A DNA stretch of 28,170 nt from a virus: positions 1 through 28,170 of IMG/VR virus record IMGVR_UViG_3300025122_000109. The stretch is one strand, 5' to 3'. The position numbers were made by a program, and so were the translations under genes. Of the stretch, positions 6,615 to 25,143 are shown one piece after another. The stretch's first letter is position 1; each line of letters opens with the position of its first letter. The notes below the pieces were generated by a model. The model worked only from the letters and a program-made list of their open reading frames with translations. It did not search any database and had not been told where the DNA came from.

Positions 6615-9600
6615 ATGAAGATTATTCATCTTGCCGATATTCATTGGCGAGGTCTTTCCAGACATGATGAGTACAGAGAGTCATTCTCTTGCTTTTTAGA
6701 TCAAGCCAGAGAACTTAACCCAGATGTGATATACGTCGGCGGTGACATAGTTCACAATAAGACGCAGGGTATATCTCCAGAGCTCATAGATTGTCTCTGT
6801 TGGTGGTTTACCTCACTATCTGATATTGCACCCACGCACGTAATTCTAGGCAACCACGACGGCCTGGTGCTTAATAAGGATAGGCAAGATGCCATATCTC
6901 CGATCATAGAGGCATTAAATAATCCAAACATATTTCTCTATAAAGACTCAGGAGTTTTTCCAATATCAGGTCACCCTGGATTTAACTGGTGCGTCTTTTC
7001 ATGTTTTGATGAACCTGGATGGAAACACATAGAGCCTGTTGAGAATGATATAAATATTGCTCTTTTTCACGGAGCGGTGTGGGGATCAAAGACAGATATA
7101 GACTGGGAAATTGAGGGAGATGTAACTGACGATCTCTTTAAAGATTTTGATTTTTCTCTTTTGGGAGATATTCATAAAAAACAATTCTTAAATAAAGAAA
7201 AGACAATAGCATATTGCGGATCATCAATTCAACAAAATTACGGAGAAGACACTGGAAAGGGATTTTTATTTTGGGATATTAGATCAAAAGATGATTTTGA
7301 CGTAGAGTTTCATGAAATACCTCATGAAAAACCGTTCGTCACAATTGACTGGTTAGGGTCTGTAGGTGAGACAATTAATGAAGCATCAATATTTCCTTAT
7401 GGCTCAAGATTCAGAATAAGATCTAAGAGAACTCTCAATCAGGCTAGCACAAAACAGATTCAAGAAGAGCTAAAAAGAACAAATGAGGCATCTGAGGTTG
7501 TATTTAAATCAGATTCAACGTTTGATGTTTCGAAGATTAGAACCGGTGCTGGAATCCTAGATAGGGAAAATCTTAGAGATTCAAATACTCATAAAAGAAT
7601 ATTAAGGGAATATTATAAAGAATCTGATATAACAGATGAGAATTTATCTGATATGTGTGATCTAGTAGACAGGTATATGTCTCAGATATCTAAAAATGAT
7701 GAGTCACTAAGAAACTCTAGATGGCAGATAAATTCAATGAGATTTGATAATCTATTTTCATATGGCAGTGGAAATTTTATAAATTTTGAAAATCTTCAGG
7801 GAATTACTGGAATCTTTGGAAGAAACGCAAGAGGAAAGTCCTCTATAATTGGATCTCTTATGTACGGGTTGTTTAACACAACAGATAGAGGATCTATTAA
7901 AAATCTACATATCATCAATAGCAGAAAAAATAGTTGTAAGGCGTCAATAGACATATCAATAAACGGCGAGCCGATTAGGATATTAAGATCTACGATGAAG
8001 CATCAGACAAGAAAGGGTGAGGTATACGCATCCACCGGTCTTCAGCTTTATAAGATTGACGATAAAGGGAAAATAATAGGAGACCTAACAGAGGAGCAAA
8101 GAAGAGAGACAGAAAAGATATTAAGGAGGATGATTGGAACGCCTGAGGATTTTTTGATGACATCTCTTGCATCTCAAGGTGAGATGAATACCTTTATTAA
8201 AGAGGGAGCGACATCAAGAAAAGCAATTCTTACAAAATTTTTAGATTTAGAAATTTTTGATCTGATGCACGACATAGCCAAGAGCGAGTCTTCAGCAGTT
8301 AGATCAAGTGTGAAATCGTATCCGGATATAGATTGGGATGAAGCGTCTGATGATTTTCTTTTGAATTTAGACAAAAATAATGACGATTTATTGAAGATTG
8401 AAAAAGATATTCTTCTAAAGAGGTCCAATCTTTCAAAGCTTAGTGTAGATTTAGCTATCTCTGATAATCCAGATATTATCACAATATCTGAATTTAATAG
8501 TCAAAAAAAGCTAATCAGGTCTAATCAGAACAAGGTGAATGAATTGAGCGATTCCATATCTCAGATTCAATCAGAAATAGATGTTAAAAAGTCAAAAATA
8601 TTAACAATAGATCTTGTCAAGTCTGATTTTTCAATTGACAATCTTAGAGATAGTCTTGTGCAAAAGAAAATCCTTGAGAGAAAAATAGTTCAATTAAATC
8701 ATGACTATATGATAAATGAAAAGGAACTTAAGCGGCAAAAAAAGTCAATTAAAAAATTAAATAATATTCCATGCGGAGATCAATTTCCTAAATGTAAATT
8801 TATAAAGGACTCACATAGAGATAAAAACATGATTGATAAGCACGCAGAAATTGTAAGAATGTCAATGTCAATATTAAATGATGCAAAATTGTCGCTTGAT
8901 ATAATGTCTCAAAATTTCATAGAGGATAATATTGAAAAATATGAGTCTTTGGTTAGCATGCAATCATCTCTTTCATTAGAGATATCATCTAGTGAGATCT
9001 CTTTAAACAACTATATTAATGATTTTAATAGGGCCAAGTTGGACTTAGATAAGTCAGTAAGTGATCTTAGCTCAATGAGAGATAGACTTGTCAAAGATGG
9101 AGAAAATCCGTCATCTGTAATAAGATCTTCAATAGTCTCGCTAGAGAAAGAAATTAAATCTGACGATCTGAAGAGAACTGATATCTTAAAAACGATAGCT
9201 GAGATTAAAGTTCGTCTAGAGAAAATAGAAGAGGACAGAGAGAGATTTGAAAAATTTAAATCAGAATTAAATGTATATGATCTCTTTATGAAGGCGGTAT
9301 CTAAAAAGGGTATTCCGCTTCAGATAATTCTTTCTCAACTTCCAATAATCAACTCAGAGATATCTAAGATTTTACATGGTGTTGTCGGGTTTACAGTTGA
9401 ACTTGAAGCAAATCCTGACTCAAATGCCATGGATGTATTTATAAATTATGGAGACAGCAGAAGAGTGATCGAGCTTGCATCGGGAATGGAAAAGATGATG
9501 TCATCTCTGGCAATTAGAGTGGCTTTGATAAATGTTTCATCATTAACAAAGACAAACATGTTAATTATTGATGAGGGGTTTGGATCACTTGATGAGAGCA

Positions 9601-9752
9601 ATATTGAGGCTTGTAGTAGGCTTCTACAGTCTCTTAAGAAGTGGTTTAGAAATATTATTATTATTTCTCATGTCGATGCAATAAAGGACGCGGTCGATAA
9701 TTCTCTGGAGATAGTTAGAAATGAAAAGGACTCAAAAGTTTTCAATGGATAA
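6615..9752 (+). CDS. 47-46: Fused recombination nuclease, gp47 (Mre11/SbcD) + gp46 (Rad50/SbcC)
   Basis: One uninterrupted 1045-residue frame joins two proteins that T4 makes separately (about 340 and 560 residues). The N-terminal ~330 residues are an Mre11/SbcD metallophosphatase: HLADIHW (Asp8, His10), GGDIVHN, LGNHDG, a later LFHGAVWG and GDIHKKQF, the order of metal-binding motifs in the family. From about residue 375 comes a Rad50/SbcC ATPase: Walker A GRNARGKS (Lys408), a long coiled coil with a central cysteine hook (Cys720 and Cys727), the signature ELASGMEKMM (953-962) and Walker B MLIIDEGFGSLDE (Asp986, Glu987). The complex resects DNA ends for recombination-dependent replication. 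The gene begins 57 bases after its neighbour, and the next start lies inside its end. Confidence 0.92.
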   Translation: MKIIHLADIHWRGLSRHDEYRESFSCFLDQARELNPDVIYVGGDIVHNKTQGISPELIDCLCWWFTSLSDIAPTHVILGNHDGLVLNKDRQDAISPIIEALNNPNIFLYKDSGVFPISGHPGFNWCVFSCFDEPGWKHIEPVENDINIALFHGAVWGSKTDIDWEIEGDVTDDLFKDFDFSLLGDIHKKQFLNKEKTIAYCGSSIQQNYGEDTGKGFLFWDIRSKDDFDVEFHEIPHEKPFVTIDWLGSVGETINEASIFPYGSRFRIRSKRTLNQASTKQIQEELKRTNEASEVVFKSDSTFDVSKIRTGAGILDRENLRDSNTHKRILREYYKESDITDENLSDMCDLVDRYMSQISKNDESLRNSRWQINSMRFDNLFSYGSGNFINFENLQGITGIFGRNARGKSSIIGSLMYGLFNTTDRGSIKNLHIINSRKNSCKASIDISINGEPIRILRSTMKHQTRKGEVYASTGLQLYKIDDKGKIIGDLTEEQRRETEKILRRMIGTPEDFLMTSLASQGEMNTFIKEGATSRKAILTKFLDLEIFDLMHDIAKSESSAVRSSVKSYPDIDWDEASDDFLLNLDKNNDDLLKIEKDILLKRSNLSKLSVDLAISDNPDIITISEFNSQKKLIRSNQNKVNELSDSISQIQSEIDVKKSKILTIDLVKSDFSIDNLRDSLVQKKILERKIVQLNHDYMINEKELKRQKKSIKKLNNIPCGDQFPKCKFIKDSHRDKNMIDKHAEIVRMSMSILNDAKLSLDIMSQNFIEDNIEKYESLVSMQSSLSLEISSSEISLNNYINDFNRAKLDLDKSVSDLSSMRDRLVKDGENPSSVIRSSIVSLEKEIKSDDLKRTDILKTIAEIKVRLEKIEEDRERFEKFKSELNVYDLFMKAVSKKGIPLQIILSQLPIINSEISKILHGVVGFTVELEANPDSNAMDVFINYGDSRRVIELASGMEKMMSSLAIRVALINVSSLTKTNMLIIDEGFGSLDESNIEACSRLLQSLKKWFRNIIIISHVDAIKDAVDNSLEIVRNEKDSKVFNG

Positions 9753-19250: not shown

Positions 19251-21227
19251 ATGGCTAAGTCATTTACACTAAATCAGCTTACAGAGGGAATCCGCGATCG
19301 AAACGTGGGTGCCGAAGGACGTAGGCTAGTTGAGAAGTGGACCAGAACTGGTCTTCTTCGCGGCCTTGGTGATCACAAGAGAGAGACTATGTCTCGCCTC
19401 CTTGAGAATCAGGCAGCACAGCTTCTTAGAGAGCAGAACAGTATCTCTACAGGGGCAGCAAGCGGAACATCGTCTGGTGACATCCGCGGCTTCACAAATA
19501 TCGCATTCCCGATCGTTCGTCGGGTTTTCGGTGGTCTAATCTCCAACGAGCTTGTATCAATCCAGCCAATGAGCCTTCCATCCGGTCTGCTCTTCTATCT
19601 GGATTACACGTATGGAAGCAATGTTGGTGGCGACGCTAATACCACAACTGGAGCTGAGGGATCAGTGGCGTCTGAGCAGTATGCTCAAGGTCAATCAATC
19701 TACAACCTTCCAACAGGTAAGGGTGTAAGATCTGGGTCTCTCGCAATCGGCGGTCAGTATGACCTCGTTGGTGCTGGATACACAAAGGTTCACGCAACTG
19801 CTACTGGAACCTCATGGTCATTGTTAGCATCAGGCGCATATATGGGAAGTAAAACTCTACAGAGTGGACTCACAGCAATGTGTCACGCAACTGGTACCGA
19901 CGGAAAACTTCTACAGTTTGATCCACAGGTTACCACTCTAATTGAGGATGATCCTGGCCGATCTAACACAGGTCGTTTCCAGTTTATGTTCTGGGATGTT
20001 ACATCAATGCCTGCCAATATTGATCTCACAGCTGTGAGAGAGGTTGGCATCTTCACTCAGGGCAGCGGCGGAGGATTTGACCCTCTTGCAACTTCCTCTC
20101 CTGGTCTTAAGGAGCTTGGAGCTGGTGCAGGCGGAACTGCAGCTGAGATTCAGGGCGGTAAGGGACTTCTTAACGTTAGACGTCTCAACCAGCTTGGAAC
20201 GTATGTGAGCGGCAAATTCACGCCGGACCCACTCGTAACAAGATCCACAACCAATGCAGCTCTTTTGACAGTTGTCTCTGGAACATATCCAATTGACATG
20301 GCTGGATCTGCTGGGTCTGCGTCAGAAAATAACGTCACTGGCTCTTACGTCGTTGGTGCAACGCTAAGCGTCGGTGGTGACGGTGATGTTCTTACGATTC
20401 CAACGTTTGAGTCAGACTTCTCAACAACACCTCAGATAGTCATCCCAGAGATCGACATCAAGATCGAGTCAATTGCTGTTACAGCTCAGACCCGTAAGCT
20501 CCGCGCTCGCTGGTCACCAGAGCTCGCTCAGGATTTGAATGCCTACCACAGCCTTGACGCTGAGGTTGAGCTCACTCAGATCCTCTCCGAGCAGATTGCT
20601 CTTGAGATTGATAGAGAGATCCTTGCTGATCTTCTCACTGAGGCCAAGGGAGCTAACTACTACTGGTCAAGAATGCCCGGTAAGTTCGTCAATAAGACGA
20701 ATGGTACAGCTCAGAACAAGGCTTCTTCTCTAGCTGCTGGTCCCACCTTCACAGGTACGGTCCGTGAGTGGTATGAGACTCTCGTTGAGACAATCATCGA
20801 CGTTGCAAATGAGATTCACAGAAAGACACTCCGTGGCTCTGCTAACTTCGTTGTAACCTCACCTGATGTCGCAACCATCTTCGAGGCCTCGGTGCTCTAT
20901 AAGCCCAATTACAGCCTTGACGGGCAGGGACAGGTTGGTCAGCCGTTCTCACTCGGTGCAGCCCCAATCGGCTCTCTTAGCAACCGCTTCACAGTCTACA
21001 AGGATCCGTACTTCCCACGGAATAAGATCCTCGTCGGTTACAAGGGCGGAAGCTATCTCGAGACAGGTTACGTCTACGCTCCGTACGTTCCGTTGATCGT
21101 CACTCCAACCATCTTCGCTCCCGAAGACTTCACACCTCGCAAGGGCGTGATGACTCGATACGGCAAGAGAATGGTTCGTGCTGACTTCTACGGTACAGTT
21201 ACGGTCATGGATCTTAACGTAATCTAA
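19251..21227 (+). CDS. 23: Major capsid protein, T4 gp23-like, 658 aa
   Basis: It starts with ATG 19251 after AAAGGAG. HK97-fold T4-type landmarks are clear: IAFPIVRRVFGGLISNELVSIQPM with LPSGLLFYLDYTYG, then IESIAVTAQTRKLRARWSPE, LAQDLNAYHSLDAEVELTQIL and IALEIDREILADL. It is longer than T4 gp23 (521), with an insertion of roughly 130 residues between the two conserved blocks (about 135-390). Candidate maturation sites of the (L/I)xE type are LTE12, LLE52 and LRE61; the last is nearest in position to the T4 cut at Glu65. Codon use differs from neighbours, with many CGC/CGT, CTC and ATC codons, as expected for the most abundant protein. A strong terminator follows. Confidence 0.95.
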   Translation: MAKSFTLNQLTEGIRDRNVGAEGRRLVEKWTRTGLLRGLGDHKRETMSRLLENQAAQLLREQNSISTGAASGTSSGDIRGFTNIAFPIVRRVFGGLISNELVSIQPMSLPSGLLFYLDYTYGSNVGGDANTTTGAEGSVASEQYAQGQSIYNLPTGKGVRSGSLAIGGQYDLVGAGYTKVHATATGTSWSLLASGAYMGSKTLQSGLTAMCHATGTDGKLLQFDPQVTTLIEDDPGRSNTGRFQFMFWDVTSMPANIDLTAVREVGIFTQGSGGGFDPLATSSPGLKELGAGAGGTAAEIQGGKGLLNVRRLNQLGTYVSGKFTPDPLVTRSTTNAALLTVVSGTYPIDMAGSAGSASENNVTGSYVVGATLSVGGDGDVLTIPTFESDFSTTPQIVIPEIDIKIESIAVTAQTRKLRARWSPELAQDLNAYHSLDAEVELTQILSEQIALEIDREILADLLTEAKGANYYWSRMPGKFVNKTNGTAQNKASSLAAGPTFTGTVREWYETLVETIIDVANEIHRKTLRGSANFVVTSPDVATIFEASVLYKPNYSLDGQGQVGQPFSLGAAPIGSLSNRFTVYKDPYFPRNKILVGYKGGSYLETGYVYAPYVPLIVTPTIFAPEDFTPRKGVMTRYGKRMVRADFYGTVTVMDLNVI

Positions 21228-21250
21228 CCCTTCGGGTTGTGATACAACTG

Positions 21251-21283
21251 GGGGCGGCCTTAATTGGTCGCCCCTTTTTGTTT
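21251..21283 (+). terminator. Rho-independent terminator after the major capsid gene
   Basis: A 9-bp stem, GGGGCGGCC with GGTCGCCCC (one G-U pair), loop TTAATT, is followed by TTTTTGTTTG. It lies 23 bases after the capsid stop. A smaller AACCC/GGGTT hairpin precedes it at 21229-21241. Confidence 0.9.
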
Positions 21284-21291
21284 GTGACGTC

Positions 21292-21299
21292 TATAAATG
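21292..21299 (+). promoter_or_regulatory. T4 late-promoter-like box TATAAATG
   Basis: TATAAATG differs by one base from the T4 late promoter consensus TATAAATA and lies just after the capsid terminator, about 94 bases before ATG 21393. This would give a leader of roughly 85 bases that contains a GC-rich structured segment. A terminator directly upstream means this gene needs its own promoter or readthrough, which supports the call. Confidence 0.4.
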
Positions 21300-21341
21300 T
21301 AATTTTAGTGCCTATATATTGGTAGGCCCGGTTCACATAAT

Positions 21342-21366
21342 CAGCCGACCCCGCCGGCGAATCGGA
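21342..21366 (+). other. GC-rich potential hairpin in the leader of the decoration-protein gene
   Basis: The segment contains a CCGA/TCGG pair of arms (21345-21348 and 21362-21365) around the perfect palindrome CGCCGGCG (21352-21359). It is far more GC-rich than the surrounding DNA and sits between the putative promoter and the AGGAGAGAG ribosome site. It could stabilise the transcript or be a remnant of transferred DNA. Confidence 0.35.
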
Positions 21367-21392
21367 ATCTTGCGGACAAAAGGAGAGAGATT

Positions 21393-21899
21393 ATGCCAAA
21401 AGTAACAATTGATAATACAAGAGGTCTCGTTCAAGAAGCAGGAAACGGGCACCTACAAATTAACGCCGGTTATTCGGGAAAGCGCGCTGTCGTCGATCTT
21501 GACGCCGCCACGTACGCACCAACTGCAGCTCAAAGCGGGACAATATTCACTTTTGACGGAACAACATGCGCGGTTACGCTGCCGCAAGCGATAGTCGGAT
21601 TGGAATATACATTCGTCTTTGCTGCCACTGCCGTCACCAACTCTATAACAACTCAGTCAGCTGATGGTTTTGCAGGAGCTTTGCTCACTACAACTGCTGC
21701 GCTTAACAGCACAAACTTATCAACCACAACGTCACTAATTGATTCTTGGGCTGCCACGACCGACACCCTGTCGTTTAATGGAACGACACAGGGGGGTCTC
21801 ATAGGCACCAGAATTCATGTCGTCGCTGTAACTGCGTTAATGTGGCAGGTTTCTGGAATCAATATCGGATCTGGAACTCTGGTAACTGTAGCTTCTTAG
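21393..21899 (+). CDS. Probable virion (capsid decoration) protein, 168 aa
   Basis: ATG 21393 follows AAAAGGAGAGAG. The product is an all-beta, Thr/Ala/Ser-rich protein without cysteine motifs: a segment around AVVDLDAATYAPTAAQSGTI, then TCAVTLPQAIVGLEYTFVFA, and a C-terminal tail VVAVTALMWQVSGINIGSG. The 'TLP.A..GL.YTF' strand and the W-x-VSG ending occur in abundant virion proteins of marine phages as I remember them. Position just behind the major capsid gene, own promoter-like box, own terminator and codon use as rich in GCC, ACG and GAC as the capsid gene suggest high late expression; a capsid decoration protein is the simplest reading. Its C-terminal tail recurs in the next gene. Alternative: head fibre or tail component. 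Confidence 0.6.
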   Translation: MPKVTIDNTRGLVQEAGNGHLQINAGYSGKRAVVDLDAATYAPTAAQSGTIFTFDGTTCAVTLPQAIVGLEYTFVFAATAVTNSITTQSADGFAGALLTTTAALNSTNLSTTTSLIDSWAATTDTLSFNGTTQGGLIGTRIHVVAVTALMWQVSGINIGSGTLVTVAS

Positions 21900-21935
21900 A
21901 CTAATATATTTAATTTAGGTTGCGACTAATATAAG

Positions 21936-21965
21936 GGGCACCTCTTAGAGGTGCCCTTTTTATTT
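21936..21965 (+). terminator. Rho-independent terminator after the decoration-protein gene
   Basis: A perfect 9-bp stem GGGCACCTC/GAGGTGCCC with loop TTA is followed by TTTTTATTTTA. It lies 36 bases after the stop at 21899. Confidence 0.92.
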
Positions 21966-21978
21966 TATCCTAATATTT

Positions 21979-21992
21979 AATAGTATACTATT
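21979..21992. repeat. 14-bp perfect palindrome, operator-like
   Basis: AATAGTATACTATT reads the same on both strands. It sits between the second terminator and the mini-gene, overlapping the end of an ATATTTA element (21973-21979). It could be a dimeric protein binding site, or chance in AT-rich DNA. Confidence 0.35.
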
Positions 21993-22054
21993 TAGGCCAC
22001 GGGGTAACTTTATCAAGTAAGCGTGATGGTGCATATTTATAGTGGAGAAGATGG

Positions 22055-22375
22055 ATGGCAAGCAGCGTTAAATCAACTTATGCTCCAGAGGGCGGATCCA
22101 AAAATAAGAAAAGGGAAGAAACTAAAATGAGTGGAAAAAACCAAGAAAGTCTTTATGACGATGATTTCGATTTTGTCGAAGCTTATGACGAAGATCCAGT
22201 AGCAAGTGATGAGCGGATGCTGCCTGAAAACGATGCAGTTTCTGCAATTTCGTGCGCTTTCCTTGGCATTGGCGGCGGCGGCGTTATTGACCTAATCGCT
22301 GTCTCTGGTTCCGAGTGGCACGTATCAGGCCTCGTTCAAGGAAGTGGCTCAGTTGCAACCGCATTTAGTGGATAG
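22055..22375 (+). CDS. Chimeric mini-protein: tubulin-like N-terminus joined to decoration-protein tail, 106 aa
   Basis: ATG 22055 lies seven bases after GGAG (22044-22047). Residues 1-9 (MASSVKSTY) parallel the start of the tubulin-like protein (MPSTVKRSF). Residues 36-76, from DDFDFVEAYD through SAISCAF to GGGG, align without gaps with residues 93-133 of that protein, 30 of 41 identical by my count. Exactly in the glycine loop the homology stops, and residues 78-105 (IDLIAVSGSEWHVSGLVQGS onward) align instead with the C-terminal tail of the 21393 protein (12 of 28 identical by my count). No GTPase site remains. An own ribosome site, upstream ATATTTAT element and strong terminator argue that it is expressed and not simply debris. 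Function unknown. Confidence 0.65.
   Translation: MASSVKSTYAPEGGSKNKKREETKMSGKNQESLYDDDFDFVEAYDEDPVASDERMLPENDAVSAISCAFLGIGGGGVIDLIAVSGSEWHVSGLVQGSGSVATAFSG
22160..22282 (+). repeat. Diverged copy of the tubulin-like gene segment 22781-22903
   Basis: This 123-base stretch encodes the acidic DDFDFVEAYD motif through the first glycine loop. It matches 22781-22903 codon for codon without gaps. The gene starts are also alike: 15 of the first 18 bases of 22055-22072 and 22505-22522 agree by my count. Confidence 0.8.
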
Positions 22376-22429
22376 TCTATAGGCCTTAAAAATTTATTGT
22401 CTTCTTTTGAGGACTAGAATTTGATATTA

Positions 22430-22461
22430 AAGCCGGTGTGATTTCACACCGGCTTTTCTAT
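22430..22461 (+). terminator. Rho-independent terminator after the chimeric mini-gene
   Basis: An 11-bp perfect stem AAGCCGGTGTG/CACACCGGCTT with loop ATTT is followed by TTCTATTT. It separates the mini-gene from the tubulin-like gene, whose promoter-like sequence begins directly behind it. Confidence 0.88.
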
Positions 22462-22490
22462 TTACATGTGTTTGTGATATTTATTATAAT
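22461..22490 (+). promoter_or_regulatory. Sigma-70-like promoter of the tubulin-like gene
   Basis: TTTACA (22461-22466), an 18-base spacer and a perfect TATAAT (22485-22490) stand directly behind a terminator. The spacer contains ATATTTAT (22477-22484), also present upstream of the mini-gene and of the gp13 gene. The predicted transcript start is only about 8 bases before ATG 22505. Confidence 0.5.
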
Positions 22491-22504
22491 GATAGGTACT
22501 TTTA

Positions 22505-23809
22505 ATGCCAAGCACGGTTAAAAGATCTTTTTTTTATACAGACGAAAAAGAAATAGGAGTTGATAAAGAGATGGCAGACGATTTTTATAAGGAAGCAGCT
22601 CAGGAGACTCTTAAGGCTGCTGTGAGAGAGAAGCTTGCATCGCAGCAACAACCTCAAAAGGAAGAGCAGCCTCAAGTGCAGCCACAACGTGACAGTGCTC
22701 CGGTGGCAGAGGTGAGTCAGCCTGCTCAGCCAGAGCCGCAGCTAGACCCACCGGTCGCTGATGATCATGAAGATGATTTTGATGATTTTGACTTTGTTGA
22801 GGCATATGACGACACTCCTGCTGCAGCTGATGCTCAAATGCTTCCAGACAATAGAGCAAGAAGCGCAATATCGTGTGCATTTATTGGCGTCGGCGGCGGT
22901 GGAGGAAAGATCGCCAAGGCTTTTCTAGACCTTGGATTTACAAAAACAGTTCTTATAAACACAACTGTTAAAGATCAGCCCGAGGGTGTGTCATCTGAGC
23001 ACTTTCTACTGCTCCCAGGAGCTGATGGTGTAGGGAAGGATATAACTCTTGGAAAGAGGGTTCTCATAGACAATAGCGCTATGGTAGAGGACATGCTTAG
23101 AACTAGAGTGGGAAAAGTTGACTGGATATTTGTTCTAGCCGGCGGCGGTGGAGGAACAGGTAGTGCATGCAAGATTCTTAACGATACCCTGGTCCGTCAC
23201 CTTAAGTCTGTAGGGGGAAATGGTGATGTTGTATATATTATCACGAAACCATCCTCACAGGAGCTTCTGAATCCCACCATATCAACAAATTTTGAGTCTC
23301 TACACGATGATGTCAGGCTTACTCCGCACATACTTCTAGACAACGAGAGACAGCTTCAGCTTCTTAGAGGGAAAGTAGGAATTTTAAATCTATACCCCAC
23401 AGCAAATAAGAATTTTGCAAAGCTATTGTGGAATGTTTTAAAGCTAGCATCAGAAAATTCTCCAATTCAATCATTTGACTCTAAGGATCTTGAGAGATGT
23501 CTCTCAACCCCGGGAAGGATGGTCGTTGGAAGCACAATTGCTAGAGATGTGACAAAGCAAGATCTAGGGTCTATTCTGTATCAGGGGTGCATTAGGTCTT
23601 CGCCATGTCCAGCTCCTCCTGGAAGATCAAAAGCAGGAGTGATGCTTCTCATAGCCACCTCTGCAATGGCATCTGACCCATCAGTTAGTAAAAAGCTAGA
23701 GGCTTCGTTTTCATATCTTGGGGGAAGGACAGATACCCTTTTCACCGGCGTGTATGTGAAAGAGAGAATACCTGGTCTGATAGCGATAACTGTTATTGGT
23801 GGAATTTAA
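22505..23809 (+). CDS. Tubulin/FtsZ-family GTPase with acidic N-terminal extension, 434 aa
   Basis: The core from about residue 120 follows the FtsZ/tubulin order. First glycine loop: FIGVGGGGGKIAKAF (G128-K135). A T3-like stretch: GADGVGKDITLGKRVL. The tubulin signature loop: AGGGGGTGSACK (213-220). A T7-type catalytic loop: FDSKDLERCL with Asp325 and Asp328, lined up with FtsZ NxDxxD. The C-terminal domain ends exactly at ITVIGGI, like FtsZ 'VTVIATG', with no FtsZ-type C-terminal tail. Residues 1-119 are instead a Gln/Pro/Glu-rich, disordered acidic extension with DDFDFVEAYDD. ATG 22505 is supported by similarity to the mini-gene start; ATG 22571 (residue 23), 11 bases after AGGAG, is an alternative. 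GTP-driven filament formation is the family property; location in the head-neck block suggests late action. Tubulins known from jumbo phages (PhuZ) lie in other contexts. Confidence 0.85.
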   Translation: MPSTVKRSFFYTDEKEIGVDKEMADDFYKEAAQETLKAAVREKLASQQQPQKEEQPQVQPQRDSAPVAEVSQPAQPEPQLDPPVADDHEDDFDDFDFVEAYDDTPAAADAQMLPDNRARSAISCAFIGVGGGGGKIAKAFLDLGFTKTVLINTTVKDQPEGVSSEHFLLLPGADGVGKDITLGKRVLIDNSAMVEDMLRTRVGKVDWIFVLAGGGGGTGSACKILNDTLVRHLKSVGGNGDVVYIITKPSSQELLNPTISTNFESLHDDVRLTPHILLDNERQLQLLRGKVGILNLYPTANKNFAKLLWNVLKLASENSPIQSFDSKDLERCLSTPGRMVVGSTIARDVTKQDLGSILYQGCIRSSPCPAPPGRSKAGVMLLIATSAMASDPSVSKKLEASFSYLGGRTDTLFTGVYVKERIPGLIAITVIGGI

Positions 23810-23821
23810 TTTTTTTTTTTT
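23792..23821 (+). terminator. Weak terminator candidate: T12 run after the tubulin-like gene
   Basis: Twelve T residues (23810-23821) follow the stop directly. The only upstream hairpin is a short imperfect one at the end of the coding region (ATAACTGTTAT). It may terminate weakly; the following gap holds promoter-like elements. Confidence 0.3.
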
Positions 23822-23871
23822 AGTGAGCCACGAGCTAAAAAGACACAAATATAGTTAATATTGTAGAGTTG

Positions 23872-23897
23872 AAACTAGTAATTCGATAATCTAGTTT
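23872..23897. repeat. Inverted repeat AAACTAG/CTAGTTT before the gp13 gene
   Basis: Perfect 7-bp arms at 23872-23878 and 23891-23897 are separated by 12 bases, 20 bases upstream of an ATATTTAT element (23917-23924). There is no T-run, so it is more likely a binding site or mRNA hairpin than a terminator. Confidence 0.35.
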
Positions 23898-23961
23898 AAA
23901 TCTGACATATTTCTTAATATTTATGATTAGCGCAACAGTGCTTTTCGTCAGGAGATTATTC

Positions 23962-25143
23962 GTGGCTACATTTTCACAAACCACAAATCCGACTCCGTAT
24001 GGATTTTTTGATAATGAGTCAAATTTTCAGACAGAGGCGGATAATGTTGTCACTTTTGTCAAAAGAAAGCTAGGTGATGATGTTTTAAGTGTCGAGTTAA
24101 CAAAAAAGCAGATCTGGGCATCTTTAGAAGAGTCAGCTTTAGAGTTTAGCTCAATACTAAACCAATATCAGGCAAAATCACAGCTATCTCAATTTTTGGG
24201 TCAGGCAACTACTGGATCTACGGGCGCAATGTCTGGGTCAGAGGGAATGTACCCAAGAGAGAATCTTGAGTATCTTACAAGATTTGCTGAGCCATATGCT
24301 GAAAACGCCGGAGTGGGTGGATCATATGATATGATGTCCGGGTCTATTCAGCTAAAACAAAATGTTCAGGACTACGACATCTATAGCACGCTTAAGGATT
24401 CAGGTGATAATCTTATATTTTCTTCAAGTTTAAATCCCCTTAGGACAAAATTGCAAATTAGTGAGGTTTTTCACTTTAATCCACAGGCAGCTTATAGGTT
24501 TTTTGATACAACATCTGCTATAAACTATCTCAATAATGAATTTTCATTTGAGTCATTTACGCCTGAGACCATATTCTATGTGCTTCCTGTCTTTGAGGAT
24601 ATTCTTAGAGCAGGACAGCTTGATATATCAAATAGAGTTAGAAGATCAAATTATTCTTATAAGGTGGTTGGGACAAACATAAGAATATATCCAAAGCCAT
24701 CGCTTGATAATCCTCAAAAGCTCTTTATTAGAGTGAAATTCTTTTCAAACCCCCTTAGCCCATCATTCCGAGACGATACAATAAAGGGAGTGTCAAATTT
24801 ATCAGACATTCCGTTTGGAAATCTTGAATATAATAATATTAATAGTATTGGAAGACAGTGGATAAGGCAGTATGCACTAGCAGTGTCAACAGAGTTGCTC
24901 GGAAGGATCAGATCAAAATTTGGGAATATACCGATACCTGGCTCAGACTTGACACTGAATGGGACGGATTTAGTGTCACAAGGGAGAGAAGATCAGACAA
25001 ATTTAAAAACGCAGCTTAAGGAGATGCTAGAGACAATGACGTATGATAAGCTTATGGAGACAGCGGCAACACGCGCAGAGTTTATCAATAAACAGTTAAA
25101 ATATGTTCCAATGCCTAACGGCCTAGCAATCTTTATGGGGTAG
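23962..25143 (+). CDS. 13: Neck protein, T4 gp13-like, 393 aa
   Basis: I start it at GTG 23962, seven bases after AGGAG; the ATG at 23923 would precede that ribosome site and add 13 unrelated residues. The N-terminal FVKRKLGDDVLSVELTKKQI followed by ESALEF matches the T4 gp13 opening ('LRRLGAP...VELTPDQI...ALE'). The C-terminal part, IGRQWIRQYALAVSTELLGR, IPIPGSDLTLNGTDL and a final LAIFMG, matches the T4 gp13 end ('W.KDYA.ALAKELNG...LPGG..I.G..L...', 'ILVG'). It is longer than T4 gp13 (309), with insertions in the middle. The protein closes the filled head together with gp14 so that the tail can attach. The gp14 gene follows after three bases. Confidence 0.8.
   Translation: MATFSQTTNPTPYGFFDNESNFQTEADNVVTFVKRKLGDDVLSVELTKKQIWASLEESALEFSSILNQYQAKSQLSQFLGQATTGSTGAMSGSEGMYPRENLEYLTRFAEPYAENAGVGGSYDMMSGSIQLKQNVQDYDIYSTLKDSGDNLIFSSSLNPLRTKLQISEVFHFNPQAAYRFFDTTSAINYLNNEFSFESFTPETIFYVLPVFEDILRAGQLDISNRVRRSNYSYKVVGTNIRIYPKPSLDNPQKLFIRVKFFSNPLSPSFRDDTIKGVSNLSDIPFGNLEYNNINSIGRQWIRQYALAVSTELLGRIRSKFGNIPIPGSDLTLNGTDLVSQGREDQTNLKTQLKEMLETMTYDKLMETAATRAEFINKQLKYVPMPNGLAIFMG

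Follow-up and report, generated by a model that had tools for sequence, protein, structure and literature searches.

Gene Z of the viral record IMGVR_UViG_3300025122_000109 encodes, as judged from sequence profiles and a predicted structure, a GTPase of the tubulin/FtsZ superfamily. It belongs to a separate tubulin family in large gp23-type phages that is encoded by hundreds of stretches in IMG/VR. We use the name Z for the phage tubulin/FtsZ-like GTPase gene in the 28,170-nucleotide stretch of this record that was analysed here (the window). Reviews of phage tubulins name PhuZ of the nucleus-forming phiKZ-like phages and TubZ of the plasmid-like phage c-st and of plasmids (PMC7950403). In a survey of marine jumbo phages, tubulin homologs were unique to the phiKZ-like cluster (PMC9123017). 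The main text of a tree study of the tubulin superfamily mentions no phage or viral members (PMC9871819), and for one hot-spring virome a tubulin/FtsZ protein cluster was reported, with no further study (PMC8597652). T4-like marine viruses had previously not been reported to carry a tubulin, and our literature search, which left out subscription papers and preprints, returned no description of the Z family.

Assignment of Z to the tubulin/FtsZ superfamily

The 434-residue product of Z had originally been predicted to be a tubulin/FtsZ-like GTPase, and this assignment is confirmed at the level of family profiles and predicted fold (Table 1). The minus strand of 22505-23809 is full of stops. With the window protein as the only query, matches were obtained to PF00091 (E 1.1e-4, under the gathering cut-off), to the PHROG family 'tubulin PhuZ' (E 3e-5) and, by phmmer against the PDB, to CetZ (3zid, E 1e-6) and FtsZ (E 1e-5). 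A profile made from an alignment of 70 family members found FtsZ in the PDB with E 1.1e-9 and CetZ with 1.3e-8, followed by TubZ of 4xcq (1.4e-6) and plasmid TubZ/RepX (3.8e-4); a PhuZ chain was absent from the 60 PDB matches listed for this profile. The NCBIfam ftsZ model was matched by all 70 members, and the window protein scored 25.1 bits against TIGR00065, below the equivalog cut-off of 295 bits. PF00091 gave a single match, hence one tubulin, in each of 15 out of 15 Z phage genomes, with E-values of 1e-5 to 1e-9, and in two genomes the match exceeded the curated cut-off.

The final AlphaFold2 model, which is based on the same 70 sequences, reached a pLDDT of 93.1 and a pTM of 0.89 and shows a C-terminal domain of four strands as well as the helix H7 and the T7 loop. 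All matches listed in a Foldseek search of the PDB belong to the tubulin superfamily, the best being CetZ, FtsZ and TubZ (4ei7), with CetZ 3zid in first place (E 7.5e-21) and FtsZ at a TM of ~0.6-0.8. Both the profile search and the structure prediction, which had been suggested as checks on the original prediction, place the core with tubulin/FtsZ. A non-tubulin Rossmann protein is ruled out by the profiles and the fold search; matches to dehydrogenases were weak and covered the first glycine loop only.

Table 1. Features of the Z locus, with positions in the window
Feature	Position	Strand	Basis or remark
gp23, major capsid protein, upstream of Z	19251..21227	+	PF07068 E 6.7e-77
Relic/hybrid ORF, 106 aa	22055..22375	+	5' part = second Z gene of L004/L027 type; 3' part resembles upstream-frame tail in L065
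Intrinsic terminator just upstream of Z promoter-like site	22429..22456	+	prediction; 8 terminator-like sites vs 1.8 in shuffles
Promoter-like site TTTACA-N18-TATAAT (11/12), sigma70-like	22461..22490	+	just 5' of start codon 22505
Z, tubulin/FtsZ-like GTPase, 434 aa	22505..23809	+	uninterrupted ORF, profile matches, predicted fold
Variable N-terminal spacer, residues 1-94, predicted disordered	22505..22786	+	low pLDDT; length variation among relatives
Conserved short motif FDFVEAY, residues 95-101	22787..22807	+	fixed distance to T1 loop in relatives
T1 glycine loop GVGGGGGK, residues 128-135	22886..22909	+	sequence, family alignment, FtsZ profile alignment
T4 tubulin signature loop GGGGGTGS, residues 213-220	23141..23164	+	GGGTGS invariant in 70/70
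Central helix H7, residues 293-314 (model helix 208-229)	23381..23446	+	predicted structure
T7 catalytic loop SFDSKD, residues 323-328	23471..23488	+	D325, D328 invariant in 70/70
gp13-like head-tail adaptor, downstream of Z	23923..25143	+	phrog_211 E 4e-11; immuto match

A global profile alignment of Z with FtsZ spans 307 columns, including the C-terminal domain, at ~20% identity. In it, D325 and D328 line up with the catalytic aspartates of FtsZ, N280 aligns with the ND motif that follows the sixth strand, and N301 corresponds to the asparagine of H7; we take the roles of these FtsZ residues from general knowledge of FtsZ. Both glycine loops and the T7-type D-x-x-D are intact at the residues originally predicted, and N280 and N301 are likewise invariant in all 70 members. 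Two departures from FtsZ are common to the aligned Z proteins: Ser/Thr replaces the asparagine of the T7 loop, and Ala/Ser stands where the T4 loop (G-box) of FtsZ has its final glycine. Owing to these substitutions, the kinetics of Z may differ from those of FtsZ. The absence of an FtsZ-type tail had also been predicted correctly, since the window protein ends directly after the last strand, in sequence and model alike, with neither a C-terminal linker nor a tail peptide.

The N-terminal region

An acidic N-terminal extension of ~119 residues had been described for Z. The extension is present, but it consists rather of a variable spacer and one conserved motif whose spacing to the core is fixed. 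In 85 of 99 relatives, FDFVxxY (or FGFIxxY) precedes the T1 loop by 31-33 residues; in the other 14, either the motif itself varies or the script did not locate the T1 loop. The whole region N-terminal of the T1 loop ranges from 34 to 176 residues in the 85 complete relatives with the motif, and the first ~25 modelled residues of Z, which contain it, are of low confidence. The fixed distance between motif and T1 loop suggests a structural or binding role near the core, with the rest of the region as a tether.

Two other readings of the motif were rejected. A prohead protease site at FDFVE/A would involve an E-A step that is not conserved in the family (FGFIEHY, FDFVADY, FDFVDHY). A motif common to Z and head gene 16991 was considered on account of a similar acidic/aromatic stretch in the window, which is not conserved in the orthologues of 16991.

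Expression signals and the upstream relic

Z had been predicted to have its own promoter, and a promoter-like site indeed stands right before its start, after a strong terminator. A Z promoter at 22461-22490 is likely, although promoter-like sites in the region are no more numerous than in shuffles. The nearest relative, L020, keeps this arrangement of terminator and promoter-like site and, largely, the sequence of the latter. Upstream of Z, a search of the coding strand for the T4-type late promoter TATAAATA gave no match. ATATTTAT precedes just the relic ORF, Z and gp13 on the + strand, and three such sites prove nothing.

The relic ORF at 22055-22375, which the original prediction did not mention, has a 5' part that resembles the Z genes of L004, L027 and L028, with the motif and the beginning of the T1 loop. 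It is absent in L020, whose Z is ~90% identical to that of the window. It is probably a scar left when two loci with Z exchanged sequence, and less probably an assembly chimera. Such a scar would be in keeping with the behaviour of Z as a cassette, which is set out below.

Genomic position and mobility

The original prediction placed Z in the capsid-neck cluster, between capsid and decoration genes and gp13. gp23 does lie upstream and a gp13-like gene downstream, but the 'decoration gene' at 21393-21899 was only a guess. The naming of the downstream gene as gp13 is reasonable in view of its phrog_211 match and the match of its product to the 'putative head completion protein' of Flavobacterium phage immuto. 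Its relatives align from residue 14, which makes GTG at 23962 the likelier start; the listed start is probably 13 codons early (23923-23961). The gp23 of the window has 658 residues, with the main match at residues 383-649; the large stretch that separates this match from the N-terminal part is probably an inserted domain. Elsewhere in the window, a gp47-like phosphoesterase and a gp46/SbcC-like ATPase are fused in a 1045-residue ORF (6615-9752, + strand; Pfam Metallophos and AAA_23/SbcC). In T4, gp47 and gp46 are two genes, and a fused version of 1072 residues is present in L142.

Membership of Z in a head-neck operon did not hold up. In the clade of the window, Z is present in 13 of 45 complete gp23-gp13 intervals and absent from 32. 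Of 13 contigs lacking Z in this interval, two carry the gene at another site; the others are fragmentary and yielded no Z. By an approximate assignment with a simple script, the order gp23-Z-gp13 was seen at 25 loci, with Z adjoining gp13 at 11 more (most of them truncated upstream), gp20..Z..gp21 at 12 and gp21..Z..gp22 at 3; Z stands beside gp46/47 or primase at 10 loci, PhoH at 18 and an amidase gene at 5, and 30 loci show other positions. SpoVR, PrkA and chaperonin-like genes are also near Z in the PhoH group. In a group of large phages, the genes for SpoVR, the PrkA kinase and a chaperonin-like protein lie in a row upstream of Z (L041, 748-5733), and Z is found close to PhoH in one jumbo group. 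In L021 (9310-10194), L047, L050, L053, L056 and L119, Z is adjoined, on one side or the other, by a sulfotransferase-like gene (PF03567 E 6e-4, under the cut-off).

Pairwise identities of gp23 and gp13 are correlated with a rho of 0.86, and those of Z with the two with 0.45 and 0.41, respectively. Z divergence thus tracks gp23 and gp13 poorly, and Z appears to move between phages. A fixed component of the neck operon is rejected by the patchy presence of Z in the gp23-gp13 interval, by its other sites and by this poor tracking. Instead, Z appears to be a transferable, self-contained cassette among large T4-type phages, often located beside head genes. As many close relatives do without it, Z is dispensable for the assembly of T4-type heads. 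Measured against the nearest relative, dN/dS is ~0.06 for Z (0.056/0.906), 0.11 for gp23 and 0.04 for gp13. By this ratio Z is under purifying selection, and the low value indicates a moving gene that is selected to stay functional. Defence-system models gave no match.

Distribution and hosts

A first scan of IMG/VR returned 13 relatives with 59-90% identity, and a nine-sequence profile found 276 Z-encoding stretches there. Of these loci, 80 were taken for analysis, and a third scan added more, giving 114 distinct Z proteins. Of 20 long Z contigs, 17 (94-293 kb) carry T4-type gp23, the remaining three being pieces of 71-101 kb. Chimallin was undetected in these 20 contigs with a query that does find the chimallin of 201phi2-1, a result that very diverged shells or missing regions could also produce.

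In bacterial and archaeal genomes, only four Z contigs were found, in three MAGs whose bins are labelled Flavobacteriales or Flavobacteriaceae; a sample of 399 Flavobacteriales genomes contained no additional one. This points indirectly to flavobacterial hosts, though MAG bins can be contaminated. The similarity of head genes is in line with such hosts, since immuto is an isolate with head genes among those most similar to the window's. Three different queries against isolate phages returned no clear Z member, and neither immuto nor Microcystis phage Mel-JY01 has a Z gene. In both of these phages (L016 and L017), gp23 and the gp13-like gene are separated by PhoH, at the site that Z occupies in some relatives. 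BFVD holds structures from uncultured phages named 'FtsZ Cell division GTPase', and members of the Z family may already sit in databases under such automatic names.

Phylogenetic placement

The tree was built with FtsZ of E. coli, Bacillus, Bacteroidota, archaea and Flavobacteriales MAGs, together with PhuZ, plasmid TubZ and gp138 of phage G; CetZ was not included. One clade (99/98) unites the phage Z proteins and another (99/99) the FtsZs, those of the Flavobacteriales MAGs included. The grouping of Z with phage G gp138 and plasmid partition proteins is weak (86/52), with long branches. A captured host FtsZ was rejected because of the separate clades and the low score of Z against the equivalog cut-off given above.

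Proposed function and alternatives

We propose that Z is a phage-specific, filament-forming GTPase that would act as a late intracellular cytoskeleton and position or move heads and/or DNA as PhuZ does, without a nucleus shell, with the motif used for docking and the gene carried as a cassette. For this proposal we see the balance as even. Subunits of Z would assemble head-to-tail, so that the T7 aspartates of one complete the GTPase site of the next. The filaments would act as a cytoskeletal element inside the infected cell, presumably late, and their cargo, by analogy with PhuZ, would be heads and/or replicated DNA. Z belongs to a branch of the superfamily separate from PhuZ and would work without a phage-nucleus shell. 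FDFVxxY on its flexible spacer may be a docking site for cargo, for an anchor or for a neighbouring subunit, and the N-terminal tether would mirror that of FtsZ, which is tethered at its C-terminus. The invariant machinery of the GTPase cycle, together with T7, which acts only in the polymer, argues for assembling filaments and not for a degenerate homologue. Frequent placement with head genes and large genomes make the positioning of heads or DNA the leading idea, on circumstantial grounds; that several groups have Z away from head genes counts against the proposal. In phiKZ-like phages, PhuZ filaments carry capsids (PMC13282480), which sets a precedent for a phage tubulin with such a job, and the filaments of PhuZ phages also centre the DNA (PMC13282480, PMC7950403).

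A patchy, transferable cassette with its own promoter-like site would also be expected of a host-takeover gene. Z might then antagonise host division by co-assembling with or capping host FtsZ, so that septation stops during infection. Host FtsZ is of the same superfamily, and Z has about the size of the FtsZ core, with the tail missing. We regard this as unlikely, since an identity of only ~20% and a clade apart from the FtsZ of Flavobacteriales, whose MAGs hold phage contigs, speak against co-assembly, and a capping inhibitor would have no need of invariant catalytic T7 residues. The sites between gp23 and gp13, gp20 and gp21, and gp21 and gp22, as well as the conserved acidic/aromatic motif near the N-terminus, would fit a virion- or prohead-associated GTPase in head morphogenesis or packaging, with the motif as a capsid-targeting signal. 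However, Z is absent from most complete gp23-gp13 intervals of the same clade (32 of 45) and lies outside head genes in many other genomes, and the E-A step, which is similar to a prohead-protease site of T4, is not kept in the family; a virion role is accordingly quite doubtful in our view.

T4-type phages are known to be lytic, which makes it hard to accommodate a TubZ-like role in partitioning the DNA of a phage in a plasmid-like or pseudolysogenic state. Such a role is suggested by the nearest plasmid relative, on plaBV1 of B. velezensis (E 1e-5), which sits behind a TubR-like winged-helix gene, and by the loose tree grouping of Z with TubZ and phage G gp138. Yet no adjoining winged-helix gene and no tubS-like iterons were seen around the window's Z, and phage G gp138 is likewise without an annotated regulator alongside; we consider partition highly improbable.

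A broader reading is that Z stands for a third family of phage tubulins apart from PhuZ and TubZ, a nucleus-free cytoskeleton of large T4-type phages with cargo tethered via FDFVxxY and with spread as a cassette. We put this forward tentatively, at slightly less than even confidence. If it is true, intracellular transport by phages is not confined to those that form a nucleus. If Z forms filaments, the spatial organisation of infection would be a wider phage strategy that is independent of a nucleus. With close relatives that have or lack the gene, and with several genomic positions, the Z family offers a natural comparison set.

Comparison with known systems

Bacterial FtsZ is the best match of Z by sequence profile and shares with it the fold, the T1, T4 and T7 loops, H7 and the C-terminal sheet. 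Z differs from it by the low identity, by an N-terminal extension in place of the C-terminal tail and by its separate clade. CetZ is the best Foldseek match and comes second by profile, but it is archaeal, whereas Z comes from phage contigs and from MAG bins of Flavobacteriales, with no archaeal link. The TubZ proteins of Bacillus and Clostridium plasmids and of phage c-st are of the same superfamily, with the weak match to 4xcq and the structural match to 4ei7. In contrast to TubZ, the neighbours of Z in the window are structural genes, with no TubR-type gene and no iteron array at 21200-24000. On plaBV1 (L243, 3735-5131), an FtsZ-like gene annotated as cell division FtsZ lies right behind a winged-helix gene; the two are probably a partition pair of the TubRZ type.

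Among named phage proteins, the closest relative is gp138 of Bacillus phage G, a 'putative FtsZ-like cell division protein' (profile E 6e-18) with ~24% identity to Z by tblastn. It differs in its location among nucleotide-metabolism genes, and its grouping with Z is weak. To our knowledge, there is no functional study of gp138. The best match among predicted viral structures is A0A6J5RW92, an 'FtsZ Cell division GTPase' of an uncultured Caudovirales phage (E 7.4e-21, TMq 0.78), of which we found no study. Its aligned identity to the window's Z is only 19%, and it is possibly a distant relative that UniProt already lists under an automatic annotation.

PhuZ, like Z, is a tubulin-superfamily protein encoded by large lytic phages. 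The fold is the same, and in BFVD Z matches PhuZ of phage Noxifer with a TM of ~0.54. On the other hand, the 70-member Z profile finds nothing in phiKZ or 201phi2-1, PhuZ lies outside the Z clade, and the match of Z to phrog_4733 is weak (10 of 70 members, best E 2e-5). Z is carried by gp23-type phages without detectable chimallin and differs further from PhuZ in its variable spacer and the FDFVxxY motif.
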